From contig SNVD02007489.1 of NCBI GenBank assembly GCA_013180625.2, forward strand, positions 186,001-250,000: a stretch of DNA of 64,000 nucleotides, written 5' to 3'. Under the pieces are notes generated by a model. That model was not told the DNA's origin. It did not search any database and saw only the letters and a program-made list of their open reading frames with translations. This DNA comes from Boswellia sacra. Lineage: Eukaryota > Streptophyta > Magnoliopsida > Sapindales > Burseraceae. Each line of letters opens with the position of its first letter. Position 1 is the first letter of the stretch. Of this stretch, positions 22,367 to 64,000 are shown one piece after another. The translations under genes and the position numbers were made by a program.

Positions 22367-22372
22367 AGTTTT

Positions 22373-22390
22373 TGGCGCCGTTGCCGGGGA
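22373..22390 (+). other. A1 primer binding site (aspartate tRNA type)
   Basis: TGGCGCCGTTGCCGGGG a few bases after the LTR. This is the PBS characteristic of Athila and other plant Ty3/Gypsy elements primed by tRNA-Asp. Confidence 0.9.
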
Positions 22391-22479
22391 TTGATTTTCT
22401 AATCGATTTGTTATTTTGTTTTCATTGTTGATTCATATTTTCTTTGTTTTTCTTTTCTGATTGTTTGTGTTTAGACAAC

Positions 22480-23474
22480 ATGGCAGTAAACTTCTATCAA
22501 TTCAGTAGCGGATTTGAGCCACAAGTACCATGGAGAGTAAATGAGGTAAGCACTCCGAACATTGAACAACAACTTTCTGAGCTAACCTCTCTTGTGGAAA
22601 ACATGGCTGTAGGAGATATGCAAAAATCTTATGAATGTGGGATATATTCTACGATGGAGCATCCAATCGACATGTATCCAACTTTACAAGAAGAATATAT
22701 GGAACAAGCCAATGCCATGGGTGAATTTCCAGGACAAACGAGGCAATGGTATGATCCTTTCTCTAGCACTTACAATGCTGGATGGGAAGATCAACATAAT
22801 TTCAGTTACTGGAATCATCAACCAATCACTCCAAATGTGATACCAAATCGGCAACAGAGTTTCAATCAACCTAGAGTGCAGCAACCATTTCAAATGCAAC
22901 CACCACCAATGCCACATCCAGCACCGCAACCAGCTTCACAAAACTCAGGTATGTCTCTCGAAGATATTGTTAATGCACTTGCCACTAACACAATGCAATT
23001 CCAGCAGGAAACTGGGGCAAGTATCCAAAACCTGGCAAATCAAATGGGACAATTGGCTACTAGCATGAGCAAATTCGAGGGCCAAGACTCAGAAAAATTA
23101 TCTTCTCAAACGGTGATCAATCCAAGCGAGACTGCTAGTGCGATAACTTTGCAAAGTGGAGAGCACTTAGATGTCTTGCCGGGAAAATCACAAACTGATG
23201 AAGGAGATGACACCACATCCACCATGAACAAAACATTGACTTCTCAGGTAATCCTATAACTCCCATTCCTTCATATGTTACTCCTCCACTTTTTCCTAGT
23301 AGATTTGCAAAATCGAAGAAGGAGGAACAAGAACAGAAAATCCTAGAAACTTTTTGCAAAATCGAGATAAATGTACCACTTCTGGATTTTATCGAGCAAG
23401 TACCTCGTTATACAAAATGTCTCAAGGAGTTATGCACCAGCAAGAGAAAGTTAAAAGGGAATGAGAAAGTAAGT
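22480..23474 (+). pseudogene. A1 gag, N-terminally truncated
   Basis: The frame opens at 22480 (MAVNFYQFSSG) and goes almost at once into the C-terminal half of Athila-type gag: a knuckle-like segment with lost cysteines (CGIYSTMEHPIDMYP), a Pro/Gln-rich stretch and the conserved SLEDIVNALATNTMQFQQ block. Compared with copy A2, the roughly 300-residue N-terminal capsid part is missing. A one-base loss near 23245 ends the frame at 23259; homology continues to about 23474 in another frame and joins the protease. Confidence 0.8.
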
Positions 23475-23943
23475 GTGGGAGAAAATGTTTCAGCTGTACT
23501 ACAAAGAAAAATTCCTCCGAATTGCAATAATCCAGGTACGATCACCATTCCATGCACCATTGGTAAAACCAAGTTTGAAAGAGCTATGTTAGATTTAGAA
23601 GCATCTATTAATGTCATGCCATATTCTATTTATGCTTCCTTAAATCTTGGACTTTTTGCGAAAACTGGTATTACCATTCAACTTGCTCATCATTTTAATG
23701 CATATCCCAAAAGAGTTGTGGAAGATGTGCTTGTGCAGGTGAATCAATTGGGTATCCCAGCAAACTTCTATGTCCTTGAAATAGAGGATGAGACATCCCC
23801 TAATCCAACACCGATTCTTTTAGGGAGACCATTCTTGAAAACTGCTAGCACCAAGATTGATGTTCATGATGGCACTCTGACCATAGAGTTTGATGGCAAG
23901 GTGATGTGTTTTAATATTTTTGAGGAAATGAGGTACTCTAATG
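23475..23943 (+). pseudogene. A1 aspartic protease
   Basis: Retroviral-type aspartic protease that would cut the Gag-Pol polyprotein. The active-site motif normally reads DLGAS but here is DLEAS (GGA to GAA, a G-to-A change), which should abolish activity. The downstream flap and ILLGRPFLKTA motif are recognisable. The frame is broken at 23944 by the synthetic adapter. Confidence 0.82.
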
Positions 23944-23981
23944 CTGTCTCTTATACACATCTAGATGTGTATAAGAGACAG
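23944..23981. other. Nextera mate-pair junction adapter (assembly contamination)
   Basis: CTGTCTCTTATACACATCT (the 19-bp Tn5 mosaic end) is followed immediately by its exact reverse complement, 38 bp in all. This is the circularisation junction adapter of Nextera mate-pair libraries. Read as protein it gives the well-known contaminant string SYTHLDVYKRQ. It is not biological. Compared with A2, about 26 bp of element sequence are missing around it, so the join was probably made by an untrimmed read. Confidence 0.98.
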
Positions 23982-24505
23982 ACATTATTGATTATTTGCC
24001 ACAACAATGTTTTGAGTTAACTCGCAAGAATGGAGTGGATGTTGCTATTAGTGAACACATAAGGATAGAAAGTTTCAAAGAACCAAGAAAGCTGATACAA
24101 TTGTCTAAAGAAGTGGAGGAAGCTGTGACAAGCTTGGATGAGACTATAGCTATCACCACAAATAGGTATGATGTTTCGTACATTGAATTTGCCTTTATCT
24201 AATGAGAAACTTCTTCCTTCTGTGATGAAAGCCAATACCTTGGAGCTTAAGTCACTTCCAGATCATTTGAATCATGAATTCTTGGGTGAGAATGATACTT
24301 TGCGAGTTACAATGGAAATGGGCCTTTCACGAATACAAGAAGAGAAACTCGTCCGAATATTTACAGATCACAAAATAGCTATTGAGTGGACAATTGTTGA
24401 CATCCAAGGCCCATCCATATGCATTGACCGTATTTTGTTAGAAGAGGGATCCAAGCCCATTAGAGAAGCACAACGAAAATTGGATCCTCCCATGATGGAA
24501 CCAAC
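23982..24505 (+). pseudogene. A1 protease-RT linker and start of the RT region
   Basis: Homologous to the segment between protease and reverse transcriptase in A2 (SLDETIAITTNRYDVSYIE, LPSVMKANTLELKSLPDHL, ILLEEGSKPIREAQRKLDPP). A frameshift splits it at about 24190. It stops abruptly after PPMMEP, where the RT fingers should begin. All RT catalytic motifs, RNase H and integrase are missing. Confidence 0.8.
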
Positions 24506-24967
24506 GTCGGGCTGAGGACGTTAAACCAAGCGCTTATTGGGAGGCAACCCAATGTTTTTGAAAAATAAAAAAAGGAAGAAAAGAAAAATAAAATGAGGTA
24601 ATAATGATCGATTTTTGTGTCTCGAGGAGATTCCTTTCATAGGCCATCAAATTGATCAGGTTTTATCTCTCTTTGCCATCTGTCTTATCTGTTTTTATAT
24701 TTTTTTACTTGTTTTTTGACTTTGTTTGCTATTGTGTTGTTATCTCTTTTATGTGTCTTTAGTTTCGTTTATGCTCTTTTCTTTTCCTTTCTTTTGTTTA
24801 ATTTGATTACTCTGTGCTTTGAGCTCATTTGTGCAGCAGCTTGTGGAAACAATTCAAAACGGGAAGGTTAAAGCCAATGTCGAAGAGTTTTGAAAGTTGC
24901 ATATTGGAGAGAAGAACAAACGCAAATCGGCAATTATCGGTTAATATCTCTCCTTTTCTTCTCTTCA
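24506..24967 (+). other. A1 post-integrase leader of ORF X
   Basis: Begins with the conserved ACGTCGGGCTGAGGACGTTA block, also present in A2 at 31145-31093 on the other strand, followed by GGGAGGCAACCCAA, which can pair with itself (GGG...CCC). It then becomes T-rich and ends near 24835 in TTTGTGCAG, a possible splice acceptor, in front of a short region that in A2 encodes a small basic peptide. The splice sites are inferred. Confidence 0.5.
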
Positions 24968-25522
24968 ATGGATGCTGATATCTTTCTATCGAACCTTCGT
25001 AAATATTTCCCTCCACTTCCTCAAAATGCTGTGTTTAAAATTTATAAAGTACGGATGACTAGACTTTGGGCATTGATGCTCCTAAATGTGCCTGCTGATA
25101 TCCGATGGCTTATCGAAGCCAAAGTGAGATTGTCCGGGGAGCCGGACATTAATCTCGCAAAATACATGCCTGGTCTAGGAAAGAGCTACTACGCAAAGAG
25201 GCGAAGAGCGACAAGGTTACAAGTATGTTATAAATGTGCTAGATGGAATTGTAACCAGACTTGTCGTTCATTAGGTTTTGCGTCCAGGAATAGAGAAGAT
25301 TAACTTTCATTTATTAAGAATGGTTTGAGTAATGAGTCGCTGGATAATGTTTTGTTAACTCTCGAGTCACATTCTTGTGGACTTCTTCAGCGTGAATTGC
25401 TTAATCTATGGACACAATTTCGTGATGAATTGCAGTGTTATAGTCTAGGGAATCTGACTAATAACGACCCTGTTTGCCAGTTTATAAGAAAACTGGATGG
25501 GAAGCAAATCCCCGACTCATAG
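24968..25522 (+). pseudogene. ORF X of A1: basic Cys-finger protein (one internal stop)
   Basis: 184 codons from ATG 24968 to TAG 25522, interrupted by one TAA at 25301 (A2 has AAA, Lys, there). The protein has a helical-looking N-terminal part (FLSNLRKYFPPLPQ, then PADIRWLIEAKVRL), GKSYYAKRRRATRLQ, a basic patch, then CYKCARWNCNQTC (C-x2-C-x4-C-x3-C), and a C-terminal part ending NDPVCQFIRKLDGKQIPDS. It has no signal peptide or membrane segment. A basic patch directly before a small Cys finger is the plan of the cysteine-rich nucleic-acid-binding proteins of some plant RNA viruses (carla- and vitivirus type), some of which suppress silencing. That likeness is by eye only; the function is unknown. 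Confidence 0.75.
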
Positions 25523-25770
25523 AAGGCGTTTCAGCCGTTACTGGACGTAAAACCAGAGGAAGATGTGAGCCACAATCACAACTACTTGTAGATTTGAATG
25601 TGTGTTGTTGTTGTAGAATTTTTTTTTCTTGTTTCGTTTGATCTGATTATCAATGTTGTTTTTGTGTTGTTGTTGTTTGTTGATTTTGTTTGTTTTTAAT
25701 TTCAAGTTTTCTTTTTGACAAACCATATGACTACCCCATGACATAAGCACACGTGTAAGACAAGTGTTGA

Positions 25771-25944
25771 GGTTTTGTCAACCTCCGTCGAAAGTATATC
25801 TTTACTTTTCAATGCTACACGTGGTAGCAAGTGTTGGATATGTTTTGTCAACCTCCACCGAAAGTGTATTCGTCCATTTATCCATGCTTCACGTAGGAAA
25901 CCACAGTGTGTAGGTTTTGTCAACCTCGCCGAAAGCATATCTCA
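25771..25944 (+). repeat. Three-copy repeat of about 72 bp upstream of the A1 LOG copy
   Basis: GTTTTGTCAACCTCC followed by CGAAAGTATATC occurs three times, at about 25771, 25842 and 25915. The copies have diverged, and the third lacks a couple of bases. The repeat lies between ORF X and LOG and is absent from family B. It could be a promoter or enhancer array for LOG or simply a neutral tandem duplication. Confidence 0.7.
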
Positions 25945-26069
25945 TTTTCATACATTTTGGGGCCATAATATCTGTATCTATACCCCCACCGAATTTGGTC
26001 CGCTCCGTGTCAATTTGAGAGTTTCTCACGTGTGTATATATCCATTTTGCATCTTCTCAAATTGTCATT

Positions 26070-26080
26070 TTTATATAACC
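26070..26080 (+). promoter_or_regulatory. TATA-like box upstream of the A1 LOG copy
   Basis: TTTTATATAAC lies about 75 bp before the LOG ATG at 26151. Family B has TATAAAT/CATAAAT in the equivalent place. Confidence 0.45.
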
Positions 26081-26150
26081 GTCTTGCACTTGAATCGCAT
26101 AATACCTAACGTACATCATTGTCTTGCACAAGTTTAGAGCACTTTTAGAA

Positions 26151-26852
26151 ATGGAGAAAACACCAATTCGGCGATTCCAAATATATGCGTATTTTGTGGA
26201 TCGCAATTTGGTAAAGATGGAGAGTTTACAACAGCAGCTCTTGATCTTGGTAGGACATTAGCCGCGAGGGGTATTCATTTGAGTTATGGAGGGGGTAGTC
26301 TTGGGTTAATGGGGTGTGTGTCGACAGCTGCATCATTGGGAGGAAGTAAAGTTCCGGCTTATCCCTAACTTAGCTGTAACGAGATAGCGTAGGCAACACA
26401 AATCGGGAAGATTACAGTCTCTAGTATGCATGGCGTCTGCACATATGGTTGTTAATCCGATCTTCTAGCGTTGCCTGCCCGGTGGTTATGGTACATTAGA
26501 GGAGATATTTCAAATCACCTCTTGGGCACAGCTAAACATCCATCGTAAACCCTTTGGTTTGTTAAATGTTAATAATTTTTTTGATGGTTTGTTGTCCTTT
26601 CTTGATCAAGCTGTAGAAAAAAATTTCATCTCACTGTCAGCAAGGCAAATGCTGGTTACAGCTTCAACTGCAGGAGATTTAATTGACAAACTACAAGAAT
26701 TCGTCTATTCACCTGATCCAAAAATGGCTCGGATAAATTGGTTTGGAGAAGGCAACAAAAGGCGTCAACTGGATTTAACCCTCCTCTGTATCTCTATTTG
26801 TCTGTTTGCTTCGTTTTTGTTTGGCTTTTCTTTTAGTGTGTTTTTATTTTAG
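26151..26852 (+). pseudogene. LOG-like: LOG-like cytokinin phosphoribohydrolase, A1 copy (broken)
   Basis: LOG enzymes release active cytokinin bases from their riboside 5'-monophosphates. This copy is intronless. It starts at ATG 26151 (MEKTPIRR), loses frame within 30 bp through a one-base deletion, and then shows YGGGSLGLMGCVSTAA in another frame. A badly damaged middle follows (26345-26470, several stops), and then the signature PGGYGTLEE at 26478-26504, followed by SWAQLNIHRKP and LLNVNNFFDGLLSFLDQAVEKNFIS to the end. The signature here keeps the canonical Tyr and Leu of plant LOGs (the intact B2 copy reads PGGFGTFEE), which suggests it was captured from a normal LOG and diverged separately. 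Confidence 0.85.
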
Positions 26853-28755
26853 TGATTTTTCATGTCAGTCTTCTTTTGAGTTTTTTATATCAGGTTATTT
26901 TTCTTTCGTCCCAGGTAATATTTTCTAATCTCGGTTTTTAGAGTGGCGGCTTAAAAAGTTCAAGTTCTCTTGAAACGCATTATGATCTCTTCAATCCATA
27001 ATGGCTGAATAAGGAGGCTAACTTCTAAACTTTTTAGACCCATTCTAACTGACTTGTTTTTGTTTGCTGACGTGTTGGACTTTGTTATTTCATGAGTAGG
27101 TTTAATTTTATGTAATTTAGAGTTGTTATGTATTTTTGTGTATTTACCAGTTCTGACTAAAAAAAATTGTGGAAAAATCTGAGAATGGCAGAATATGGGG
27201 TTTTCTTAACTCTTGAAACGCATTCTCTCTCAATAAATCTGTAGTTTGTTTATTTCAGGTTGGTTGAAGTGTCTTGTTTCTTGTTTTGTTCTTTCATAAT
27301 AAAGGTATATAGGCTGGAAACCTTAAGTCTGCGGGCTACTGGTCCTAAGGATTGTTGAAATATACAATCTTGACTCAGGTGTAACAATGCCACGTATCTC
27401 TTCTCTTGCATTTTATGGGCCAATGATAAGGCAATGATTAAATTAAGAATAACTCTTGGAAAATGATAAATGATGCATGGATCTGTGTGCTTGAAATGTT
27501 TATTGGTTTTCGCTTTGCTTTTGATTCCTTGGCAACATTGAGCACTGAGCTATTATCACTGAGTTATTTGTTTACTTAGAGAAAGTTTATGTAATTTAAG
27601 TGTTTCTTCAGATCTCAATGAATTCTAGAACTTGTTTGATGGTCACTCGAGGCGAAATCCTAGACTGTGCAACATTAGGGAAATGATTTAGGCCATCTTT
27701 GGATCGTTTGAGCCTTAAGAGCCAACCTTGACTAAAATTGATCCCTAGTTACCCTTTGAGCCTCTGTAAACCTTTTTCTTTGTTAACTCACTAAAAGATT
27801 TCCTAATCTCAATTGAATTTGTTCCAAACAGTTTTTCCCTTACCTATGAGCATGTAAATCATTCGCAATTACATTTTGAGCTATGTTCTGGTTTTGGGAA
27901 GTTAGAGGAGGTTGGATTGTGCCATGAGCAATGCAAGTGAGTTTTATTATGTTTGTAAAAAAAAAAAAAGAGAAAAAAAATCTGGACTTATCTTCCACGT
28001 ACTTAAACATTGAGGACAATGTATTGTTTAAGTGTGGGGGAGTGGAATTGCAGTTTAAAAAAAAAAAGAAAAAAAAAGAGTTCTATACCCTTGGGCGTTC
28101 TTAAAAAGAATGAAACAACAAAGTGTGGGGGTGTAGTTTCTTTTGCTTTCTACAAAAAAAAAAGAAAAAAGAAAAAAAAGAGAAAAAAAAGAGAGTTTGA
28201 GTGTTCTGAATAAGTTTGGAGAGTCATTTGATGAATAAGAATGAATTTTTTATGTCATGGGCTTGAGCTCCACATAATATTGAATGAATTTATGTGTTTG
28301 TGGGTGATTTGAGCCTAATTATTATCCTTTATCATACCTTCACCCAAGCCAAACGTTACAAGCTTAATAAAGTCCTACTTGATCCTTGGTGTTGTGCATG
28401 TCTACATTAGTGGAGAGTGACTTGAAAAGCAGGCCTATGGAGTTCATTTATACACACCTCTTCAATATTAAATATGATTCATTTTTATGCATAAACTCAT
28501 CCGGGTTACAAGTGATTAGGTGAGAATGGCTCTACACACAACACTTGAGGAATTGAAGTGAAGCGGAACTAATCTTTGAGATAAAATTCTTGATCAAGTG
28601 CATTATTTTGAAGTTTTCCTTGGGTTATATTTAAGTACACTCTTTGAGGCCTATTTGCAAGATGAAGCATTTGTGTGTTTTAATTTTTTGTTGATTCTGT
28701 TTCGGTTTAGTTTTATTTCATATGGTCGTAGTTGCTCGAGGACTAGCAAAGTCTA
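26853..28755 (+). other. A1 3' non-coding tail
   Basis: About 1.9 kb without a coding frame. It includes a hairpin-forming ACATTGAGGACAATGT at 28007-28022 followed by GTGTGGGGGAGT, and a second GTGTGGGGG at about 28122. Both are close to long A/G-rich tracts (27957-27980, 28056-28080, 28155-28190). These G-runs look like extra polypurine tracts before the true one next to the LTR. The beginning shares words with the B2 tail (TTCAAGTTCTCTTGAAACGCATT). Confidence 0.6.
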
Positions 28756-28769
28756 AGTGTGGGGGAATT
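28756..28769 (+). other. A1 polypurine tract
   Basis: AGTGTGGGGGAATT directly before the 3' LTR, the expected primer site for plus-strand DNA synthesis. Confidence 0.85.
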
Positions 28770-30182
28770 TGATAAGTGTCTATTTATATATCATTTTTCA
28801 TATCAATTCGTCCATGTTTCTTTGCTATATTCCTTGGTATTTTTATGTTTTTGTGTGGTTTTGATGTTTGTAGGAGTTTTGGAGCAACTTGCACAAAAAT
28901 GGAGTAAAACCCTTCATTTTAACCTCTGCTAGTCAACCATCTTCTCGGATTTAATTGTATTGATATACAATGAACCCGATGACATATTATATACCGTTGG
29001 AAAGCTCTCGAAGTCTATTTTCTGGAGAATTTTACGGTTTATAAATCCATTCAGTGTACCAAAAGTTGTAATCAAAACAGTGTGAGATGTATAGAAATAT
29101 AATTCCACAAGTCACTGTAGCATGTATAATACGGGGCACTGTAGCAATTTACTGTAGCAGAGTATTTAAACACATTTTAGGGTTTTATTTTCATAACTTG
29201 AAGAGGGGAGAACGTGGTGGAGGCTTCAGCTCTGGAATTCTTTCATCTCTTAGAGTTCTTTAAGGAGAAAGGAAGCTTGGAAAGAGGAAGAACTACAATC
29301 CAAAGAGAAATACATCAAATTTGCTAAGTTTTTCCCTTCCCTTTCATTTTCTGGAATGTCTCCATGTTGTATTGTATTTACCACGTTCTTAAACATGTGT
29401 AACTGAATCTGAATTGTTTGAGGGTGATTTCAAAGCCCCTGATATGGTTTTTGTAAGTTGATTGTGTAAGGACTTGTTATCCAATTCTCTAATTAAAGTT
29501 GCTTGTATTCTCCCATATTTAATGCTTATGATTGCTTGCTGATTGTATTTGAGTGGCCAGCTGAATATAATCTGGTTGTGATTTATTGCTAGACTAGAAA
29601 TCTTGATCCGTAATTGTCTTGAATTTCTAATCATTAGTAGCAAAATTGTGATCAGAGATTACAATTGGAGAATATAACCTAAGTTAAATAATCCGAGCTT
29701 GTGTGTTTATTGCTTAGATCAACCTATCTTTCTTATCATAATGCATCCATTGAATTAAACTCAGATAGCTTGTTCTAGGTTGTTTAATGGATAGAGATTA
29801 AATAAAGAGCTTGTTTTATTTAACAACAAAGTAAGGAAAGATTGGGGTAATAGAGCTTGTTATTATCTACGGTTGATAACTTCAATGCTGTAATTAGATG
29901 ACAATTCTACAATTAATTCGCAAATCCATATCTTGTGGTAGAGAAGGATCCCTTAACCAGCTTTCTCCCATTGATTTTTCATTCAAATTTACTTTCTGTT
30001 TTGTTATTCTTTACTTGCATTCTTATTTCATTTAGTAAAATCATTCAACAAAAATCCCCCCTGTTTAGTTTATTGTTGCTGGAAATAACAAATTCAATTA
30101 GAATCAATCCTCGTGGGAACGATATCCTACTTATCACTTTATTACTTGTGCGACTAGTATACTTGCTAGTTTTGAACGCATC
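28770..30182 (+). repeat. A1 3' LTR
   Basis: About 1,413 bp, nearly the same as the 5' LTR apart from scattered substitutions and a few short indels (including the same three CACTGTAGCA motifs, one altered). The last base or two are lost: GCATC is followed by A2 ORF X sequence in the opposite orientation. Confidence 0.92.
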
Positions 30183-30189
30183 CATACAA

Positions 30190-30657
30190 CTGCAATTCAT
30201 CACGAAATTGTGTCCATAGATTAAGCAATTCACGCTGAACAAGTCCACAAGAATGTGACTCGAGAGTTACCAAAACATTATCCAGCGACTCATTACTCAA
30301 ACCATTCTTAATAAATGAAAGTTTATCTTCTCTATTCCTGGACGCAAAACCTAATGAACGACAAGTCTTGTTACAATTCCATCTAGCACATTTATAACAT
30401 ACTTGTAACCTTTTCGCTCTTCGCCTCTTGGCGTAGTAGCTCTTTCCTAGACCATGCATGTATTTTGCGAGATTAATGTCCGGCTCACCGGACAATCTCA
30501 CCTTGGCTTCGATAAGCCATCGGATATCAGCAGGCACATTTAGGAGCATCAATGCCCAAAGTCTAGTCATCCGTACTTTATAAATTTTAAACACAGCATT
30601 TTGAGGAAGTGAAGGGAAATATTTACGAAGGTTCGATAGAAAGATATTAGCATCCAT
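30190..30657 (-). pseudogene. ORF X of A2, 3'-truncated
   Basis: Starts at ATG 30657 (MDANIFLSNLRKYFPSLPQ) and is open through the basic patch (AKRRRAKRLQ), the finger CYKCARWNCNKTC and NREDKLSFIKNGL. It ends by fusion to the inverted A1 LTR after FRDELQ. It lacks the stop codon seen in A1, so it shows that the intact protein reads through that position. The last residues are LTR-derived. Confidence 0.75.
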
Positions 30658-44194: not shown

Positions 44195-44199
44195 TGAAC

Positions 44200-44303: not shown

Positions 44304-45832
44304 TGATGAACACTTAAATATGCATGTTTAATAAGAGTTTAGTTTATCATATTGCATTAATAGTGTCATTAAATTCCTCAACTTAAGCATATTTGTAGCA
44401 TTTGCATCTTTAGAATTAATTTCTCTTAATTTTGGTTTTGTTACAGGTTCGGTAAAATGGGCATAACTCTCTATTTATAGATCAGAATGGTGCAATTCTT
44501 AATGTTTTGGAAAGCTGATTTAATTGTCTACAAGATTGCATTTCAGAAGCATCATCAAATTCGGGCTCTTAGTGGACCAAAATTAGGCTTGAAGTGAACC
44601 ATCTACAGTCTCGGCCCAGTCTAACCAGGCCTCAGTATTTGGACCGTATCTCTCAAAATACGTATCCAAATTGTGCAAATCAATATGTTCTAGAAAGCTG
44701 AGAGAAATATCTACAACTTTCATGAAGACATGTGATTAAAATTCACAATATTTCGATGTCAAAATGGATGGTCAAAGTCGGTGCCTAATGATCCCAATTG
44801 TCAAAGATATTTACAACTAATATTTGACAATTATGCCCTTGTAATTTGACAAGTTTGCCCCTGGATGTATCTATAAATAGAGGTGCCTTGTGACCCATTA
44901 GGGCATCTTGGCCTTGGCTGGAACATTTTGGCTTTGGCTAGGATCTTGTATTGTGTTTTGTGTGTTTATGTTATTAATGAATTTCCTTTTCTTGCATTTT
45001 ATTTTCTTTCTATTATAATGTTCTTCTAATTTCTCTTTTGCTAAGGTGAAAAGGTGAAACCCTTGATATGAGAATAAGGACTCTCTAACCCTTAATATGT
45101 GCTTAATAATCTTAATCTTATAATGTTTATTCAATATGATTTATATTTAATTTCTTAATCAATCTTGATACCACTCGTAAAGTGGAGGTCTTGATCCATT
45201 GTCGACAATCCTTGGCACATCAAATGCTTGGATCCTTTCTAGATGATGTATGGTTCTTCCTTACCGACACGAATCTATTAGGAACCTTGATTTGTTGTAG
45301 ACATATGGTGATTGGCACATTGGATGCTTGAACCCATTTACAAGAAGTGGTATAAATATTGGTAATGAAAAAAATATAATTCATATAACTAAAATGGGTT
45401 AATTATCCTTATTTGAAATATCAAGGGCGGATCCCCTAACCTTAGCCTTCATTGTTATTGTGTGAATTCCTCTTGTATTTTAATTATTCTATTGTTTATG
45501 AACTTTTTATTTTATTTACTATGGTAGGTTCTACCACCTTATGAAATTGTTCTTTAATTTACTATGGTTGGTTATACCACCTATTCCCATGGATGGTTTT
45601 ACCTCCTCTTTGCTTTTTTGTTTTTATATTTTGAATGGTCGTAATACACCTACCATCTTACATATTTATTGATATTCTCTGTTATTTCTTGAATCATCCA
45701 TATCACATTGTTTAGCTTATAATTTTGTAACGCTTAAAATTCCCTTCCTCGTGGAGGACCACCGGTCTCACCGGGTTTTATTTACTTCGCCACGCCTAGA
45801 CTTGGGAGAACAATCTTTTCTCGATGTGGTCA
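44304..45832 (+). repeat. Family B left LTR
   Basis: About 1,529 bp, TGATGAACAC...GTGGTCA. Promoter: CTATAAATAG at 44871-44880. It is about 150 bp longer than the middle LTR because of extra sequence at about 45500-45690. Compared with the other two copies it lacks the first two bases (TG) before TGATGAAC, consistent with damage at the junction with element C. Confidence 0.9.
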
Positions 45833-47546: not shown

Positions 47547-48326
47547 GTGCCTCCATTTCCTCAAGCATTAGCCACACAAAAAAAGCAAACTCACAATTCT
47601 GAAATCTTTGAAATTTTCAAACAGGTAAAGGTCAACATTCCCTTGCTTGATGTGATCAAACAGGTAAAGGTCAACATTCCCTTGCTTGATGTGATCAAAC
47701 AGGTACCTTCTTATGTAAAATTTTTGAAAGACTTGTGCACTGTGAAAAGAAAACTGAATGTGAAAAAGAAGGCCTTTCTAGCTGAGCAAGTAAGTGCTAT
47801 CCTTCAAAATAATAATACAGTGAAATATAAGGATCCAGGTTGTCCTACAATTTCATGTGTTATTGGAGACCATAAATTTGAACAAGCTTTACTTGATCTT
47901 GGTGCTAGTGTGAATTTGCTTCCATACTCAGTTTTTCAAAAACTCAATCTAGGTGAGTTAAAACCAACTTCTGTCACTCTTTTGCTTGCTGATAGATCAA
48001 TTAAAGTACCAAGAGGAATAGTAAAAGATGTGTTAGTTCAAGTTGATAAATTCATTTACCCAGTAGATTTTATCGCCTTGGACACACAACCAGTGGAAGT
48101 AAGCAATTCAATTCCTGTTATTTTAGGGCGTCCATTTCTAGCTACTTCTAATGCTTTGATTAATTGCAGGAATGGAGTAATGAAGCTATCATTTGGGAAC
48201 ATGACATTAGAACTTAATGTTTTTAATATGTGCAAACAACCAAATGAAGAAGAAGATGAAATTGATGAGGCCAATGTGATTGAATCTATTGTGGAAGAAT
48301 CACATCCAAAAAGGGAGTTCTTCTGA
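47547..48326 (+). pseudogene. B1 gag end and aspartic protease
   Basis: A 259-codon open frame. The first part has a 13-residue segment (KQVKVNIPLLDVI) repeated twice in tandem through a 39-bp in-frame duplication that B2 lacks. The protease follows with an intact active site (LLDLGASVNLLPYSVF) and VILGRPFLATSNALI. The protease itself looks undamaged, but the Gag-Pol frame around it is broken. Confidence 0.82.
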
Positions 48327-51514: not shown

Positions 51515-52063
51515 ATGGACACCATTCTCTCAAATCTGCACAAACATTTTCCCTCTCTTCCTCCAAATGATTTGCTTAAAATTTACAAAGCTCGCACAGA
51601 AAGAGTAAGGATGTTGATGTGTAAGGGTATGCCTGTCGAAGTAAGATGGTTAATTGAAGCCAAGGTTCGATTTTCTTATGAATTTTCAGATAATCTTGTT
51701 TCTCACATGCCAGGTATGGGAAAAAGCTCTTATGCCAAAAAGTGAAGAGCGAAAAGGTTACAAGTTTGTCCCAAATGTGCAAGATGGACTTGTAACCAAC
51801 GTTGCCGCTCCTTAGGATATTTGTCTAATAATCGAGAGGATAAACTACAATTCATCAAGAATGGACTGAGTAGGGAGTCTTTGGATGATATCCGAGTGAC
51901 TCTTGAGACACATTCTTGTGGACTTGTGCAGCGTGAAATTTTTAATTTGTGGACACAATTCCGAGATGAGCAGGAACGCTATAGTCTTGGGAATCTGACT
52001 CAAAACGACCCTGTTTGCCAGTTTATAAGAAAACTGGAAGGGAAGCATATCCCCAACTCATAG
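51515..52063 (+). pseudogene. ORF X of B1: basic Cys-finger protein (one internal stop)
   Basis: 182 codons from MDTILSNLHKHFPSLPP to HIPNS, interrupted by TGA at 51743 where B2 has CGA (Arg), a C-to-T change inside the basic patch. The finger CPKCARWTCNQRC (C-x2-C-x4-C-x3-C) is intact in this copy, as are LQFIKNGLSRESLDDIR, HSCGLVQREIFNLWTQFRDE and NDPVCQFIRKL. It is clearly homologous to ORF X of family A (same finger, same C-terminal half), though the N-terminal 70 residues differ more. Function unknown; nucleic-acid binding is likely from the patch and finger. Confidence 0.78.
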
Positions 52064-52380: not shown

Positions 52381-53032
52381 ATGGAGGGAACTTCACAACG
52401 TCGAATCCAAAGGATATGTGTATTCTGCGGATCTCGACCGGGTAAAAGTGAGGAGTTTGTAGAAGTAGCAAAATATCTTGGTAGGCTACTGGCTGAAAGA
52501 AAGATTCATGTGGTTTATGGGGGAGGTAGCCTCGGGTTAATGGGTTGTGTGTCAACAGCTGCACATGTAAGAGGCACTCAAGTTTTAGGAGTTATTCCTA
52601 AAGCTTTGGCTGTAGAAAGTATTGTTGGAAAAACGGTTGGGAAAGAGTTACAGGTCTCCTCTATGCATGAACGCATGGCACATATGCTCATCAATTCAGA
52701 TGCCTTTATTGCTTTACCAGGTGGCTTTGGCACTCTTGAAGAAAATTTTTCAAATTGCCTCTTGGGCCCAACTGAATCTCCATCAAAAACCCATAGGTTT
52801 GTTGAATGTCAAAAATTTCTTTGATCCTTTGATAAGTTTGGTTGATGCAGCTGTGGAACAGAATTTTATCCCTCATTCAGCGAGAAAGATCCTTGTTTCT
52901 GCCACTTCTGCTGGTGAGTTACTTGACAAATTACAAGAAGTTGAGTATGAACTTGACCCAGCTAGTACTCAAATTAATTGGGCAGGAGGGCAAAACAAAA
53001 AGTGCAAATTGGATTTGAATCTCCGTTTTTAA
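52381..53032 (+). pseudogene. LOG-like: LOG-like cytokinin phosphoribohydrolase, B1 copy (one frameshift)
   Basis: Intronless LOG. The first part is open from MEGTSQRRIQRICVFCGS through VVYGGGSLGLMGCVS, the conserved MHERMAHM (catalytic Arg region) and the phosphoribohydrolase signature PGGFGTLEE. A single extra A in the run at about 52741-52745 then shifts the frame. The remaining C-terminal half (LLNVKNFFDPLISLVDAAVEQNF through LDLNLRF) is open in the next frame to 53032. B2 shows the intact reading. Plant LOG genes have several introns, so the absence of any here points to capture of a spliced mRNA. Confidence 0.9.
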
Positions 53033-53579: not shown

Positions 53580-54957
53580 TGTGATGAACACTTAAATATG
53601 CATGTTTAATAAGAGTTTAGTTCATCATATTGCATTAATAGTGTCATAAAATACCTCAACTTAAGCATATTTGTAGCATTTGCATCTTTGGAATTAATTT
53701 CTCTTAATTTTGGTTTTGTTACAGGTTCGGTAAAATGGGCATAACTATCTATTTATAGATCAGAATGGTGCAATTCTTAATGTTTTGGAAAGCTGATTCA
53801 ATTTTCTACAAGATTGTATTTCCCAAACATAATCAAATTCGGGCTCTTAGTGGACCAAAATTGGGCTTGAAATGAACCCATCTACAGTCTCGGCCCAGTC
53901 TGACAAGGCCTCAGTATTTGGACCGTATCTCTCAAAATACGTATCCAAATTGTGCAAATCAATATGTTCTAGAAAGCTGAGAGAAATATCTACAACTTTA
54001 ATGAAGACATGTGATTAAAATTCTCAAAATTTCAATGTCAAAATTGATGGTCAAAGTTGGTGCCTAATGATCCCAATTGTCAAAGATATTTACAAATAAT
54101 ATTTGACAATTATGCCCTTTTAATTTGACAAGTTTGCCCCTGGATGTATCTATAAATAGAGGTGCCTTGTGACCCATTAGGGCATCTTGGCCTTGGCTGA
54201 AACATTTTGGCTTTGGCTAGGATCTTGTATTGTGTTTATGTTATTAATGAATTTCCTTTTTCTTACATTTTATTTTCTTTCTATTATAATGTTCTTCTAA
54301 TTTCTCTTTTACTAAGGTGAAAGGGTGAAACCCTTGATATGAGAATAAGGATTATCTAACGCTTAATATGTGCTTAATAATCTTAATCTTATAATGTTTA
54401 TTCAATATGATTTATATTTAATTTCTTAATCAATCTTGACACCAGTCGTAAAGTGGAGGCCTTGATCCATTGTTGACAATCCTTGGCACATCAAATGCTT
54501 GGATCCTTTCTAGATGATGTATGGTTCTTCCTTACCGACACGAATCTAGTTAGGAACCTTGATTTGTTGTAGACATATGGTGATTGGCACATTGGATGCT
54601 TGAACCCATTTACAAGAAGTGGTATAAATGTTGGTAATGAAACAAATATAATTCATATAACTAAAACGGGTTGTTTATCCTTATTTGAAATATCAAGGGC
54701 GAATCCCATAACCTTAGCTCTCATTATTATTGTGTGAATTTCTCTTGTGTTATTCTTATTTATTGTTTAAGAATTTGTTCTTTACTTATACTTGTTGATA
54801 TTATCTTGTCATCCCTTTGAATCATCCATATCATATTTGTTTACTTTATAGTTTATAGTGCTAAAATTCCCTTCCTCGTGGATCGACCCCGGTCTCATCG
54901 GGTTTTATTAATTCGACACTCCTACACTTGGGAGATAATCCTTTTTCAGATGTGTCA
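53580..54957 (+). repeat. Family B middle LTR (shared by B1 and B2)
   Basis: About 1,378 bp, TGTGATGAACAC...GTGTCA. TATA box TATAAATA at about 54151. It serves as the 3' LTR of B1 and the 5' LTR of B2. Confidence 0.9.
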
Positions 54958-54963: not shown

Positions 54964-54980
54964 TGGCGCCGTTACCGAGG
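54964..54980 (+). other. B2 primer binding site (aspartate tRNA type)
   Basis: TGGCGCCGTTACCGAGG after the middle LTR; slightly more degraded than in B1. Confidence 0.82.
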
Positions 54981-55098
54981 AAGGTAAAAATTGGCGTGCA
55001 AAATTGTAAGTGTTCTCTTTTCTCATCTTAGATCTAAATTTTTTATTTTTATTTTTTTTGTGTTCATCTTTTCTTCTCCTTTCTTCTCTCTTTCTTGC

Positions 55099-56640
55099 AT
55101 GAAAATTTGGTTACGAACATCTAGTGGTAGACTTGTTAGAAAAACATCATCTTCCTTAGAAAACATGGCTGACAATCATGTGGAAATATTCACGGACGAA
55201 GGGGACAATCGTTCCCAACAAAATGATCAGAACCAACGACGAACCCTCAGAGACTACATGAATCCGGTAAAGACTAGTGCACCATCTTGTGTAGTTTCTC
55301 CTCCAGATTCAATCCATTTTAATTTCAAACCAAGTTTTGTTCGACTTCTACCCACTTTTCATGGCCTTGACATGGAGAACCCATATTCGCACTTGAAACT
55401 CTTTGAAGAGGTATGTAGCTCCTACACTGACCCAAATTGTAGCATAAACACCATTAGATTAAAGCTTTTTCCTTTTTCTTTAAAAGATAAAGTTAGAACA
55501 TGGCTATAAAATTTGAGGTCGAATTCCATCAGTTCATGGGATGAGATGAAACAACAATTTTTGAAAAATTTTTTTCCTACCCATAGAACAAATTCTGTTA
55601 AAAGACAAATTTCTGATTTCTCTAAAAAACAAGGGGAAAACCTTTACCAATGTTAGGATAGGTATAAAGAACTACTTAATACCTGTCCTTACCATGGTTT
55701 TGAAACTTGGAGAATAGTTGCACACTTCTATGAAGGGTTAACACCTCAAGATAGGCAACTAGTAGAATTAATGTGTAATGGAGCATTTAAAGAAAAAGAC
55801 CCTGAGGAAGCACTTGACTTCCTAGATTCGTTGGCAGAAAAGGCACAAAATTGGGACACTGCTGGCACCTATGAGGTACCAAGCAAGACCTCAACCTTGA
55901 CATCCAGTAGAGGTATTTACAACCTTAGGGAAGACCATGACCTTCAAGCCAAATATGCATCGCTTGCTAGAAAAATCGAGGCTTTAGAAATGAAAAAGAG
56001 TGGTCAATTAAACTCTATTCAAGAAAATGTCTGTAATATTTGTGATGACAATGACCATTCTACTGATGATTGCCCAACTTTGCCTACCTTTAGGGAATGT
56101 CTCCATGAACAAGCCAATGCCTTGAACACTTTCAAAAGGCCAAATCACAATCCATACTCACAAACCTATAATCCTGATTGGAGAAATCATCCAAATCTTA
56201 GTTGGAAAAATGATAATCATGCACAATCTTCACAAGTCCCCTTTCAAACACGACAAAATTTTCAAAATTCTCATGATCATGCATATGCTCCTCCTCCAAG
56301 GAATGACTTTGAAGAAACATTGCATTCATTCATTACAAAGCAAGAGACTTTCAATAGTCAAAATGATCAAACATTAGCAAATTTGTCAGAAACTCTTGCA
56401 AAATTTGCATCTACATTTAGCATCCAAGAGAAGAGAAAATTTCCTTCTCAAACATTGTAAAACCCCAAAGATCAATCTAACTCAAATGCAGGCAGTTCAA
56501 ATAACCATTATTTTGACCAAGCTAAGTCAGTCATGACCCTTAGCAATGGTAAGGTTGTTGAAAAACATATTCCTAACCCTTGTGAGAAAGAAGAAGAATC
56601 GATCTCTAAAGGGAAGGAAGAGGTTGCCAAACCAATACCT
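55099..56640 (+). pseudogene. B2 gag
   Basis: From ATG 55099 (MKIWLRTSSGRLVRKTS) it is open to a TAA at 55507 directly after KVRTWL. A further TAG at about 55654 replaces a Trp codon of B1 (TGG to TAG). The frame is then open from 55771 to a TAA at 56458 that replaces a Gln codon. The long middle piece carries the knuckle CNICDDNDHSTDDCP and the conserved NPYSQTYNPDWRNHPNLSW block. It has fewer indels than B1 but several nonsense changes, mostly C-to-T or G-to-A. Confidence 0.83.
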
Positions 56641-57330
56641 AGCGAAGAGGAAACCAAATCCTCATATGTGCCTCCATTTCCTCAAGCATTAGCTACACAA
56701 AAGAAGCCAACTCACAATTCTGAAATCTTTGAAATTTTCAAACAGGTAAAGGTCAACATTCCCTTGCTTGATGTGATCAAACAGGTACCTTCTTACGCAA
56801 AATTTTTGAAAGACTTGTGCACTATGAAAAGAAAACTGAATGTGAAAAAGAAGGCCTTTCTAGCTGAGCAGATAAGTGCTATTCTTTAAAATAATAATAT
56901 AGTGAAATATAAGGATCCCGGTTATCCTACAATTTCATGTGTTATTGGAGACCATAAAATTGAACAAGCTTTACTTGATCTTGGTGCAAGTGTGAATTTG
57001 CTTCCATACCCGGTTTTTCAAAAACTCAATCTAGGTGAGTTAAAACCGACTTCTGTGATCTTTTTCTTGCTGATAGATCAATTAAAGTACCAAGAGGAGT
57101 AGTAGAAGATGTATTAGTTCAAGTCGATAAATTCATTTACCCGGTGGATTTTATCGTCTTGGACACAAAACCAGTAGAAGTAAGCAATTCAATTCCTGTT
57201 ATTTTAGGGCGTCCATTTCTAGCTACCTCTAATGCTTTGATTAATTACAGGAATGGAGTCATGAAACTATCATTTGGGAACATGACATTGGAACTTAATG
57301 TTTTTAATATGTGCAAATAACCAAATGAAG
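56641..57330 (+). pseudogene. B2 gag end and aspartic protease
   Basis: Open to a TAA at 56887 (a Gln codon in B1), then the protease active site LLDLGASVNLLPYPVF at about 56960-57010. A one-base change at about 57055 shifts the frame, and another stop follows at about 57317. It has only a single copy of the 13-residue segment duplicated in B1. Confidence 0.8.
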
Positions 57331-57569
57331 AAGAAGATGAAATTGACGAGGCCAATGTAATTGAATCTATTGTGGAAGATCACATCCAAAAAGGGAGTTC
57401 TTCTGACCCTTTGGAAACTTGTCTAGTAAGTTCATTAGAATCAAGTATGAAACTAGAGTCTGATCTTTCGGATATATATTCTTTATTGGATTGTGCACAG
57501 GTGATGGAAAAATGCCCAAAACCAAGATTCGAAAAATTGGGGTAAATGAATGAAAGCAAGGAAGAGGAA

Positions 57570-58500
57570 GCTCCCAAGTTAGAACTAAAGCCCTACCTGA
57601 AGGACTGAAATATGCATATCTTGGGGAGAATCAGACATATCCGGTGGTAATTTCTTCATCCCTCACATGCGAGCAACAAGGTAAGTTGATAGAAGTGCTT
57701 AAAAGGCATAAAAATGCAATTGGATGGACTTTAAAAGATATAAAAGGCATTAACCCTTTAATCTGCACACATAGAATACATTTAGAGGAAAATGTCAAAA
57801 CATCTCAACAACCTCAAAGGAGATTAAATCCACACATGAAAGAGGTCATTAGGGCTGAAGTTCTCAAACTACTTGATGTGGGAATTATCTATCTTATTTC
57901 TGATAGTAAGTGGGTAAGCCCTACACAAGTGGTACCTAAGAAATCTGGCATTACAGTAGTTAAAAATGAAAAGGGTGAATTATTGCCAACTCGTGTCTCA
58001 TCTAGTTGGAGGATGTGCATTGATTATAGAAAATTAAATGTTGTCACTAGAAAAGACCATTTTCCCTTACCTTTCCATGACCAAATTATTGAAAGAGTAG
58101 CAGGAAACTCCTACTACTGCTTTCTTGATGGATACTCAGGCTATTATCAAATTCCCATTGTACTTGAAGACCAAGAAAAGACCACATTCACGTGCCCGTT
58201 CGGCACTTTTGCATTTAAGAGAATGCCTTTTGGACTTTGTAATGCTCCAGCTACTTTTCAAAGATGCATGCTGAGCATTTTTAGTGACATGGTCGAGCAT
58301 TGTTTAGAAGTTTTCATGGATGATTTAACTGTTTTTGGAAACTTTTTTGATAATGTCATTATATGGTCACTTCGGGAATTGTCTTAGGACATGTGGTGTC
58401 TTCTAAAGGAATCGAAGTGGACAAAGCAAAAGTGGAATTAATTTCCCATTTTCCTCCACCAAAAACAGTCAAAGAGGTTCGTTCATTCTTAGGGCATGCT
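57570..58500 (+). pseudogene. B2 reverse transcriptase
   Basis: Open from about 57644 through FLDGYSGYYQI, MPFGLCNAPATFQRCM and VFMDDLTVFG, so all three catalytic Asp residues are present. It then fails at about 58353, where a deletion of roughly 82 bp relative to B1 removes the segment from NCLGNLEKVL to the conserved NWEKCHYMV; short matching bases (AATGTC-like) flank the break. Confidence 0.87.
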
Positions 58501-59038
58501 GGATTTTATAGGAGGTTCATAAGAAATTTTAGTGCTATATCTAAACCTCTTTGTAACCTCTTAATAAAAGACACCTCTTTTGAATGGACTCAAGAATGTC
58601 AAAATGCCTTTGATAAATTAATTGGACTTTTAACAACTGCTCCAATTATGCAATCTCCTGATTGGTCCTTGCCTTTTGAATTGATGTGTGATGCAAGTGA
58701 CTATGCCATTGGTGCTGTCATAGGACAAAGAAAAGAAGGTAAGCCTTATGTCATATACTATGCAAGTAGGACTTTAAATGATACGCAAATGAATTACACA
58801 ACAACTGAAAAAGAACTAAGTAGTATTTGCATTAGACAAATTTCATTCTTATTTAATTGGTTCTCCCACAATTGTTTACACTGACCATGCAGTTGTGAGA
58901 TATTTAATGTCTAAACAGGATGCAAAACCTAGATTGATAAGGTGGATCTTATTGCTCCAAGAATTTAACATCACAATAAAGGATAAGAAAGGAGCCAAAA
59001 ATGTCGTTGCAGATCATCTATCAAGACTAACGATATAG
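58501..59038 (+). pseudogene. B2 RNase H
   Basis: GFYRRFIRNFS connection, then [16 protein letters not shown] and TTEKEL. A deletion of about ten bases at 58817 breaks the frame and removes the LLAVV segment. [11 protein letters not shown] and VVADHLSRL follow in another frame, ending at a TAG at about 59036. Confidence 0.82.
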
Positions 59039-59109
59039 ACATTAATTGAAACTTCACCTATCAATGATTCTTTTCCTGATGAATTTTTATTTTCTGTTGC
59101 TACTGTACC

Positions 59110-60394
59110 TTGGTTTGCTAACATTGTAAATTTTCTTGCAACAGGAAAAATGCCACCTCATTGGAATGCTCAGGACAAAAGGAAATTTTTAACTGAGGTG
59201 AAAAATTTTTATTGGGATGACCCATATCTTTTCAAATATTGTCCGGACCAAATAATAAGAAAATGCATACCCGACAATGAGGTAAGTAGTGTCATCAACT
59301 TTTATCATTCTGAAACATGTGGAGGACATTTTTCGTCTAGAAAAATAGCTGCTAAAATCTTGCAATGTGGATTTTATTGGCCCACCTCATTTAAAGATGC
59401 ACATGCATTTTGCAAAACATGTGAAAATTGTAAAAAATTGGGATCCATTTCAAAAAGAAACATGATGCCTTTGAATCTCATTCTTGTTGTTGAAATCTTT
59501 GACTGTTAGGGCATTGATTTTATGGGACCCTTTCCACCATCATTTGGTTTTGGTAACATCCTTGTTGCAGTAGACTATGTTTCAAAATGGGTCGAGGCAA
59601 TTCCATGTCGAAACAATGATCACAAAATAGTTGTCAAATTCTTGAAGGAGAATATCTTGAGTAGATTTGGAATTCCTCGAGCCATTATTAGTGATGGGGG
59701 TACACATTTTTGTAACAAACCATTTGAAACTTTAATGAAGAAATATGGAATAACCCATAAAATTTCTTCACCTTATCACCCACAAACAAGTGGACAAGTT
59801 GAATTAGCTAATAGGGAGATAAAACAGATCTTATAAAAAATGATTAACTCAAATCGTAAAGATTGGTCTTTAAGACTTAATGATACACTTTGGGCTTACC
59901 GAACTGCTTTCAAAACATCATTGGGAATGTCTCCTTATAGATTAGTTTATGGAAAACCTTGTCACTTGCCGGTGGAAATTGAACATAAAGCTTATTGGGC
60001 CATTAAAACATTTAACACAACCTTGAATGATGCTTGCAAGTTACAAAAACTCCAACTGAGTGAACTTGAAGAAATCAGGAATGAGGCTTATGAAAATTCT
60101 AAAATCTACAAAGAAAAAATCAAGGTTTTTCATGACAAATTTATTGTTAGAAAATCTTTTGAACCTTCACAAAAAGTTCTTTTGTATGATTCAAGGTTGC
60201 ACTTATTTCCTGGTAAACTTCGGTCACGTTGGACTTGGCCTTTCATTGTTAAAAATGTTTTCCCTCATGGAGCAATTGAAATTGAGAACCCAAAGAATGG
60301 TAATGATTTTAAAGTTAATGGTCAACGGTTAAAACCATTCTTTGAAAATTTTGACCAAAATGAAAAGTCCATTGCTTTAATCGATCCTTTTTAA
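59110..60394 (+). pseudogene. B2 integrase
   Basis: The zinc region HSETCGGHF and CKTCENCKKLG are present. A TAG at 59507 replaces the Trp of WGIDFMG (TGG to TAG), and a TAA at about 59834 replaces a Glu in QILEK. Between and after the stops the core ([43 protein letters not shown]) and the C-terminal domain ([15 protein letters not shown]) are open. Only two point changes break it. Confidence 0.85.
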
Positions 60395-60521
60395 GGATTG
60401 ATTTTTCCCGGTCAAGTGGCGGATACGGTACTCCGTGGCTTTTAAAGTCGATTTTTTAGTTCCCTTAAAACTGTTGCTCACCTTGCATCCATTTTCTTTT
60501 CTTCTCTCTCATTTTCTTCAC
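60395..60521 (+). other. B2 post-integrase leader of ORF X
   Basis: Same arrangement as in B1: ACGGTACTCCGT, then a slightly altered GGCTTTTAAAGTC, then a T-rich tract before the ORF X start. One arm of the second hairpin has lost a pair. Confidence 0.45.
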
Positions 60522-61070
60522 ATGGATACCATTCTCTCAAAATTGCACAAACATTTTCCCTCTCTTCCTCAAAATGATTTGCTTAAAATTTACAAAGCTC
60601 GCACAGAAAGACTAAGGATGTTGATGCGTAAGGGTATGCCTGTTGAAGTAAGATGGTTAATTGAAGCCATGGTCCAATTTTCTAGTGAATTTTCAGATAA
60701 TCTTGTTTCTCACATGCCAGGTATGGGAAAAAGCTCTTACGCCAAAAAGCGAAGAGCGAAAAGGTTACAAGTTTGTCCCAAATGTGCAAGATGGACTGTA
60801 ACCAGCGTTGCCGCTCCTTGGGATATTTGTCTAAATAATCGAGAGGATAAACTACAGTTCATCAAGAATGGACTGAGTAAGGAGTCTTTGGATGATATCC
60901 GAACGACTCTTGAGACGCATTCTTGTGGACTTGTCTAGCATAAAATTTTTAACTTATGGACACAATTCCGAGATGAGCACGAACGCTATAGTCTTGGGAA
61001 TCTGACTCAAAACGACCCTGTTTGCCAGTTTATAAGAAAACTGGATGGGAAGCATATCCCCAACTCATAG
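60522..61070 (+). pseudogene. ORF X of B2: Cys finger destroyed by paired frameshifts
   Basis: Starts at 60522 (MDTILSKLHKHF) with the basic patch AKKRRAKRLQ intact. Inside the finger one base is lost after the Trp codon and one base is gained about 45 bp further on. The frame is restored, but the second half of the finger (TCNQRC in B1) is replaced by an unrelated stretch (TVTSVAAPWDIC). A TAG at 60936 replaces a Gln codon (CAG in B1) and ends the product early. The remaining C-terminal part to 61070 is homologous to the other copies. Confidence 0.78.
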
Positions 61071-61387: not shown

Positions 61388-62038
61388 ATGGAGGGAACTT
61401 TAAAACGTCAAATCCAAAAGATATGTGTATTCTGTGGATCTCAATCGGGTAAAAGTGAAGAGTTTGTCGAGGCAGCAAATTATCTTGGTAGACTACTGGC
61501 TGAGAGAAAGATTCATGTGGTGTATGGGGGAGGTAGCCTCGGGTTGATGGGTTGTGTGTCAAGAGCTGTACGTGTAGGAGGTAGTCAAGTTTTAGGAGTC
61601 ATTCCTAAAGCTTTGGCTATAGATAGCATTGTTGGAAAAACGGTTGGGCATGAGTTACAAGTCTCCTCTATGCATGAACGCATGGCACATATGCTCATCA
61701 ATTCAGATGCCTTTATTGCTTTACCAGGTGGCTTTGGTACTTTTGAAGAAATTTTTCAAATTGCCTCTTGGGCCCAACTTAACCTCCATAAAAAACCCAT
61801 AGATTTGTTGAATGTTAACAATTTCTTTGATCCTTTAATAAGTTTTGTTGATGCAGCTGTAGAACAAAATTTTATCCCACACTGGGCGAGACAGATCCTT
61901 GTTTCTGCCACTTCTGCTGGTGAGTTACTTGATAAATTACAAGAAGTTGAGTATGAACCTGACCCAGCTAGTACTCAAATTAATTGGATAAGAGGGCAAA
62001 ACAAAAAGTGCAAATTGGATCTGAATCTCTGTTTGTAA
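61388..62038 (+). CDS. LOG-like: LOG-like cytokinin riboside 5'-monophosphate phosphoribohydrolase (intact, retrotransposon-borne)
   Basis: 216 codons, uninterrupted, no introns; plant LOG proteins are usually about 210-225 residues. LOG cleaves cytokinin nucleotides to the active free base plus ribose 5-phosphate, probably in the cytosol. Seen: ICVFCGSQSGK at residues 12-22, YGGGSLGLMG at 46-55, MHERMAHM at 95-102 with Arg98, and the signature PGGFGTFEE at 113-121 (canonical plant form PGGYGTLEE), followed by SWAQLNLHKKP and LLNVNNFFDPLISFVDAAVEQNF. The glycines and the final Glu of the signature are kept; Tyr to Phe and Leu to Phe are the changes. It sits between ORF X and the 3' tail of a Gypsy element whose other genes are all broken. 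The start ATG is shared with the B1 and A1 copies. Whether it is expressed or enzymatically active is unknown. Confidence 0.93.
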   Translation: MEGTLKRQIQKICVFCGSQSGKSEEFVEAANYLGRLLAERKIHVVYGGGSLGLMGCVSRAVRVGGSQVLGVIPKALAIDSIVGKTVGHELQVSSMHERMAHMLINSDAFIALPGGFGTFEEIFQIASWAQLNLHKKPIDLLNVNNFFDPLISFVDAAVEQNFIPHWARQILVSATSAGELLDKLQEVEYEPDPASTQINWIRGQNKKCKLDLNLCL

Positions 62039-63340: not shown

Positions 63341-63352
63341 CTAGTTGGGGGG
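63341..63352 (+). other. B2 polypurine tract
   Basis: CTAGTTGGGGGG directly before the right LTR. Confidence 0.6.
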
Positions 63353-64000
63353 TGTGATGAACACTTAAATATGCATGTTTACTAAGAGTTTAGTTCATTC
63401 ATATTGCATTAATAGTGTCATTAAATTCCTCAACTTAAGCATATTTGTAGTCTTTGCATCTTTGGAATTAACTTCCTCTTAATTTTGGTTTTGTTACAGG
63501 TTCGGTAAAATGGGCATACCTCTCTATTTATAGATCAGAATGGTGCAATTCTTAATGTTTTGGAAAGCTGATTCAATTGTCTACAAGATTGCATTTCACA
63601 AGCATCATCAAATTCGGGCTCTTAGTGGACCAAAATTGGGCTTGAATTGAACCCATCTACAGTCTCGGCCCAGTTTGACCAGGACTCAGTATTTGGACCG
63701 TATCTCTCAAAATACGTATCCAAATTGTGCAAATCAATATGTTCTAGAAAGCTGAGAGAAATATCTACAACTTTCATGAAGACATGTGATTAAAATTCTC
63801 AATATTTCAATGTCAAAATTGATGGTCAAATTCGGTGCCTAATGATCCCAATTATCAAAGATATTTACAACTAATATTTGACAATTATGCCCTTGTAATT
63901 GGACAAGTTTGCCCCTGGATGTATCTATAAATAGAGGTGCCTTGTGACCCATTAGGGCATCTTGGCCTTGGCTGGAACATTTTGGCTTTGGCTAGGATCT
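63353..64000 (+). repeat. Family B right LTR (cut by window edge)
   Basis: First 648 bp of the LTR, starting TGTGATGAACAC, with the TATA box at about 63925. Very similar to the left and middle copies. It may end the array or lead to a further internal unit. Confidence 0.92.

Follow-up and report, generated by a model that had tools for sequence, protein, structure and literature searches.

The window, a 64,000-nucleotide stretch of Boswellia sacra DNA, contains a gene of the LOG family that lies inside an LTR retrotransposon. The question raised by this locus is what the element does with such a gene: whether the product releases active cytokinin, as a sequence-only reading had proposed, or has been put to another use. 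To place the gene, the window was compared with itself by self-BLAST. LTR-like repeats were found to start at 44304, 53582 and 63355, with alignments that were 93-96% identical, and the order from 44304 to the window end is LTR-internal-LTR-internal-LTR, with elements 1 and 2 in tandem. The parts of these two elements, together with a third element, are as follows.

44304..45826, plus strand: 5' LTR of element 1, right end approximate (self-BLAST; PBS-like TGGCGCC at 45840)
53582..54950, plus strand: LTR common to element 1 (3' LTR) and element 2 (5' LTR), right end approximate, starting TGATGAACAC (self-BLAST against 44304-45512 and 63355-64000)
54964..54981, plus strand: PBS-like site of element 2, beginning TGGCGCCGTT (exact TGGCGCC at 54964)
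54988..60394, plus strand: gag-pol of element 2, broken (RT, RNase H, integrase H2C2 and core, in gypsy order)
63344..63354, plus strand: purine tract, G-rich, GTTGGGGGGTG, ahead of the 3' LTR of element 2 (by sequence)
63355..64000, plus strand: 3' LTR of element 2, starting TGATGAACAC and cut off at the window edge (self-BLAST)
20955..30182, plus strand: element 3 (LTRs 20955-22366 and 28770-30182, 98% identical; PBS-like site at 22373)

The gag-pol of element 2 matched PF00078, PF17919, PF17917, PF17921 and PF00665, with the integrase core (rve) at 59510-59836, and the protease Pfam match came from element 1 (47496-48326). Judged by its RT-RNase H-integrase order, LTRs, PBS-like site and purine tract, the carrier is a Ty3/Gypsy element. 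It is likely Athila, a lineage name that we presume from the PBS type and the pol sequence; the PBS-like site at 54964..54981 of element 2 is one that we take to be of the OTA/Athila type.

Element 3 lacks the RT-to-integrase part, though its cargo is present. It is young-looking, and could be a nonautonomous derivative or the product of a later deletion. No evident 5-base duplication was seen at its flanks, and the right flank abuts a broken element 4 on the minus strand. At window position 30184, element 4 ends inside its own NABP-like gene (the second cargo gene, described below) exactly at the LTR edge of element 3. Since element 4 is cut at this LTR edge and no leftover of its cargo was found within the window to the left of 20955, the arrangement is not a simple nested insertion. 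Another Gypsy-like gag-pol (40711-44338, minus strand) directly adjoins the 5' LTR of element 1, and a Copia-like gag with a zinc knuckle, recognized by eye, lies to the left of element 3 at 19127-20858.

LOG-like cargo genes are located in elements 1, 2 and 3.

61388..62038, plus strand: LOG-like cargo gene of element 2 (P0001), open, 216 aa, C-terminus KLDLNLCL (PF03641, LOG3 match)
52381..53032, plus strand: LOG-like cargo gene of element 1, with a single one-base indel near codon 122 (frameshift)
26151..26852, plus strand: LOG-like cargo gene of element 3, with several indels and a stop

The sequence-only reading had described an open 216-codon LOG-family frame at 61388-62038, and this description held. 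The translation has 216 residues and 0 internal stops, and it matched PF03641 (3.7e-36, whole profile covered) and Arabidopsis LOG3 (2a33; 3.4e-60). It contains the PGGxGTxxE motif, which a regular expression found in 111 of 121 rows, and its predicted fold was confident (pLDDT 87.9), with the Arabidopsis LOG-like structures 2a33 and 1ydh as the first PDB matches. The reported location between integrase and 3' LTR was also borne out, with rve at 59510-59836 preceding the gene and the LTR from 63355 following it, and the copies said to occupy equivalent places were found at 52381-53032 and 26151-26852, both of them broken. The open frame of element 2 is unremarkable by itself, because elsewhere in that element both gag-pol and the NABP-like frame are disrupted. 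Host LOG genes contain introns, and the intron-free frame fits the earlier suggestion that a spliced LOG mRNA was captured. In element 1, a TATAAATA box was noted at 52324, 57 bases ahead of the LOG ATG, a core-promoter-like spacing. The box is present in element 1 only; the element 2 site is one base off, and element 3 is without it.

The earlier statement that no plant retrotransposon with this cargo had been described proved wrong. Alvarado-Marchena et al. 2022 (PMC9289625, excerpts), who cite Steinbauerova et al. 2011, had already described a YgdH (LOG) domain in Ty3/Gypsy consensus elements of Citrus and Populus. The carriage of LOG by a retrotransposon thus stands, with several copies here and related elements elsewhere, while the claim to a first description does not. 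LOG was also found beside a Ty3/Gypsy pol outside the window, as a pol-LOG join in independent gene models, and the Citrus and Populus relatives found here are probably the lineage of the published YgdH elements.

Residues of the LOG pocket were compared between an element-type set and a host panel, with numbering according to CgLOG (from the excerpted part of PMC4979012). The element-type set comprised the best 120 of 7816 matches plus P0001, minus five Xanthoceras rows, which left 116 rows; "element-type" denotes a sequence class, which for the 115 database rows need not in each case mean a place inside an element. The host panel comprised the 116 new rows among the best 120 of one profile search (LOG3, LOG8 and one Xanthoceras protein). 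The catalytic residues were kept in the element-type rows, Arg99 in 112/116 and Glu122 in 114/116 (Arg98 and Glu121 in P0001). Lys100 was kept in 1/116 (Ile 42, Leu 39, Met 33; Met99 in P0001) and Glu125 likewise in 1/116 (Gln 57, His 52; Gln124 in P0001), the exceptions being P0062, with Lys, and P0101, with Glu. His97 was kept in 46/116 and lost in 70/116. In the host panel, which is without other plant LOG clades, Arg99, Glu122, Lys100, Glu125 and His97 were each present in 116/116 rows. The five Xanthoceras rows kept both Lys100 and Glu125. Alanine changes of AMP-binding residues, the equivalent Lys included, cost CgLOG almost all of its activity, as given in the same part of PMC4979012. 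The earlier term "hormone-activating" is doubtful, since the pocket Lys and Glu are replaced in P0001 and in nearly all listed relatives.

At its C-terminus, P0001 has LDLNL, an LxLxL motif. Of the 96 element-type rows of 214-222 aa, 90 had LxLxL among their last 12 residues, and all 96 had a hydrophobic-x-hydrophobic-x-hydrophobic tail with at least 2 Lys/Arg just ahead of the tail motif. Among the host rows, 0/116 had LxLxL in the last 12 residues and one had it anywhere. The tail is conserved across rosid families. TOPLESS is recruited by EAR motifs of the LDLxLxL form, and the basic LDLxLxL tail looks like such a repression motif.

When host-type LOGs were included in a tree, the element-type LOGs formed one clade apart from the 116 host-type rows. 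FastTree analysis of 234 rows placed the 116 element-type rows on one side with support 100. In a 50-row tree rooted on Pseudomonas LOG, whose bootstrap was not fully settled, the element-type clade including Xanthoceras had support of 98/96. The Xanthoceras rows, in which Lys and Glu are kept and the tail is absent, branched first, and the other 29 rows grouped at 99/98. This order would fit a single capture followed by pocket loss and tail gain.

What had been listed earlier as "ORF X" is a second, NABP-like cargo gene, whose profile matches are to nucleic-acid-binding proteins (NABPs) of the carlavirus/vitivirus type. It lies between integrase and LOG, just upstream of the latter, in 3/3 LOG-bearing elements, and element 4 contains a further copy.

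60522..61070, plus strand: NABP-like cargo gene of element 2, with a local frameshift and a single premature stop (PF01623 5.7e-07 and PF05515 1.5e-05, both above gathering; tblastn)
51515..52063, plus strand: NABP-like cargo gene of element 1, interrupted by a single premature stop (tblastn, sequence)
24968..25522, plus strand: NABP-like cargo gene of element 3, premature stop (PF01623 and PF05515 on 24872-25303)
30169..30657, minus strand: NABP-like cargo gene of element 4, open to the junction near 30184 (PF05515 6.2e-10, PF01623 1.9e-05)

PF01623 and PF05515 both scored above gathering in three of these four copies (60402-60938, 24872-25303 and, on the minus strand, 30166-30657), and the two stop-split halves of the element 1 copy gave no match to either profile. 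In the wider family, PF05515 matched 20 and PF01623 matched 19 of 24 aligned members, and PF01623 was precomputed in 62 of the 76 NABP database matches. The best window match to PF05515 covers about 100 residues, and is therefore more than a Cys cluster. Alignments of 24 and 43 rows both contained a basic stretch followed by the Cys cluster, in columns of the form KRRAKRL..CxKCAR...C...C. The structural model was poor (pLDDT 61.7), and 8 of 12 BFVD matches were named RNA silencing suppressor/nucleic-acid-binding protein, none of them significant (best E 0.27). Scans of IMG/VR found no relatives of LOG and no relatives of the NABP. Carlavirus CRPs are silencing suppressors, and CVB p12 is also a transcription factor that induces hyperplasia (excerpts of PMC12172455).

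The pairing of the two cargo genes was also found beyond the window. Gene models that join NABP and LOG accounted for 7/76 NABP matches, of which six belong to Citrus x changshan-huyou and the seventh to Diplodiscus; one of these models, P0183, was judged by eye only. In Xanthoceras, P0002 has two LOG stretches joined to a peptide closely like the gag-pol linker of the window element. Among contigs longer than 2 kb with NABP, 4/17 were equal in length to one of 23 contigs with LOG, compared to 0.08 expected under a length-jitter null in which four was never reached in 20000 draws; this count leaves out the LOG length 3522 and does not include the chromosome common to Xanthoceras P0002 and P0149. 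No report of a viral-type NABP neighbour of a retrotransposon LOG was found in the open-access literature searched, where no title or abstract combined "carlavirus" with "retrotransposons". The available portions of Vicient and Casacuberta 2020 and of Neumann 2019 yielded no mention of such a neighbour. The NABP neighbour, the pocket loss and the LxLxL tail go beyond the domain described in the excerpts of PMC9289625.

Judged by dN/dS, both cargo genes are under purifying selection. The ratio for LOG was 0.35 between elements 1 and 2 (Fisher test on sites, p = 0.0004) and 0.25 between element 1 or 2 and element 3. For NABP, five of six pairs gave 0.30, 0.17, 0.14, 0.14 and 0.11, and the pair of elements 3 and 4 gave 0.83, a value resting on 12 differences. 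Between lineages, the dN of RT and integrase was 0.22-0.25, with synonymous sites saturated, and the cargo dN was 0.25-0.30. The synonymous divergence of the cargo is lower than that of pol, so constraint on the cargo may be weaker than on pol.

Our preferred reading, to which we assign a nearly even chance, is that the two-gene cargo of NABP and altered LOG in this likely-Athila lineage would act as a nuclear host-suppression cassette and not as a cytokinin source. By family resemblance, the NABP-like protein would blunt RNA silencing. The LOG-like protein, going by its motif, would recruit a TOPLESS-type corepressor in place of producing cytokinin, and the basic stretches in both proteins suggest that both would enter the nucleus. 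The benefit to the element would be damped host gene control. Because the catalytic Arg and Glu are kept, binding of some nucleotide by the LOG domain has probably persisted, and cleavage may have too; perhaps this acts as a gate on the repressor tail. The same kept residues argue against the suppression-cassette reading, as they would be needless for a pure adaptor. Also counting against it are the shortness of the LxLxL motif, the ratio of 0.83 for the NABP pair of elements 3 and 4, the exceptional rows P0062 and P0101, and the poor NABP model. A more specific form of that reading seems to us unlikely. It would make the pair a counter-defence cassette, composed of an RNA-virus-derived silencing suppressor and a LOG rebuilt as a nucleotide-gated nuclear corepressor adaptor with a SUPERMAN-like EAR tail, which would shut down element-silencing host genes.

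The main rival, itself improbable, casts the element LOG as a phosphoribohydrolase retargeted to another nucleotide 5'-monophosphate, its tail serving only for nuclear placement. Constraint on the catalytic Arg/Glu and the phosphate loop is consistent with this, as is the limited range of the pocket swaps (Lys to Ile, Leu or Met; Glu to Gln or His), but it leaves unexplained why the LDLxLxL register is held so strictly at the extreme C-terminus. The pocket makes a cytokinin source less likely, and we consider it quite improbable that the element LOG works as an enzyme releasing active cytokinin and so favours dividing or meristematic cells, with the viral-type protein adding to proliferation. 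The whole LOG fold (2a33 and 1ydh being its first PDB matches), the near-universal retention of the PGGxGT motif and the catalytic Arg/Glu across the rows, the full pocket of the Xanthoceras rows and the hyperplasia induced by a carlavirus CRP (PMC12172455, in the excerpts noted above) all speak for such an enzyme. An ordinary cytokinin enzyme is nevertheless weakened by the pocket columns: Lys100 and Glu125 are each lost in 115/116 rows, the His97 equivalent is lost in 70/116, and the alanine changes described for CgLOG (PMC4979012) point the same way.

It is very unlikely that the two cargo genes have no function today and persist as passengers or env-like relics. Every window element copy is broken in gag-pol or cargo, and the NABP pair of elements 3 and 4 is near neutral; yet in both genes dN/dS is well below 1 between diverged element lineages, the cargo dN is close to that of RT and integrase, and the tail has been conserved across rosid families. 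We found no point in favour of host LOG genes having been joined to the element by misassembly. This explanation, which we regard as scarcely credible, was rejected on account of the same gene order in three copies, the independent gene models that join LOG to pol or to NABP, and the separation of the element-type clade from host LOGs.

To our knowledge, captured genes are rarely kept by plant LTR elements. If the suppression-cassette reading is true, the conserved pair would provide direct evidence of dedicated genes against host control in retrotransposons, as in viruses. In Populus, Melia and others, many database records labelled "LOGL10" or "cytokinin riboside phosphoribohydrolase" may belong to element genes whose active site has changed. 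P0043, P0054, P0060 and P0069, which come from Populus and Melia and have names of this kind, fall in the element-type clade and have the changed pocket, so LOGL10-type names may mislead.

The element LOG has the fold, the PGGxGT motif and the catalytic Arg/Glu in common with the plant LOGs LOG3 and LOG8, and differs from them in its replaced pocket Lys and Glu and its extra basic LxLxL tail. With EAR-motif (LxLxL) repressors it has a C-terminal LDLxLxL in common, a likeness of motif only; unlike those repressors, it joins the motif to an enzyme fold and not to a known DNA-binding domain. The element NABP resembles the cysteine-rich NABPs of carlaviruses, vitiviruses and allexiviruses (PF01623, PF05515) in its profile match and in its basic stretch followed by a Cys cluster, a likeness of profile and order. 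Unlike the viral proteins, it is encoded by a retroelement and has a long conserved N-terminal region. The Citrus and Populus YgdH elements likewise contain a LOG-family domain inside a plant Gypsy element, and the excerpts of PMC9289625 describe the domain only, with no mention of a viral-type neighbour, pocket loss or LxLxL tail. The same excerpts describe Phalaenopsis Gypsy elements with an AlkB-type m6A demethylase, which, like the window element, carry a captured enzyme with a nucleotide-related substrate; in contrast to the element LOG, that enzyme is unrelated, its demethylase activity was shown in vitro, and the elements are orchid-specific.
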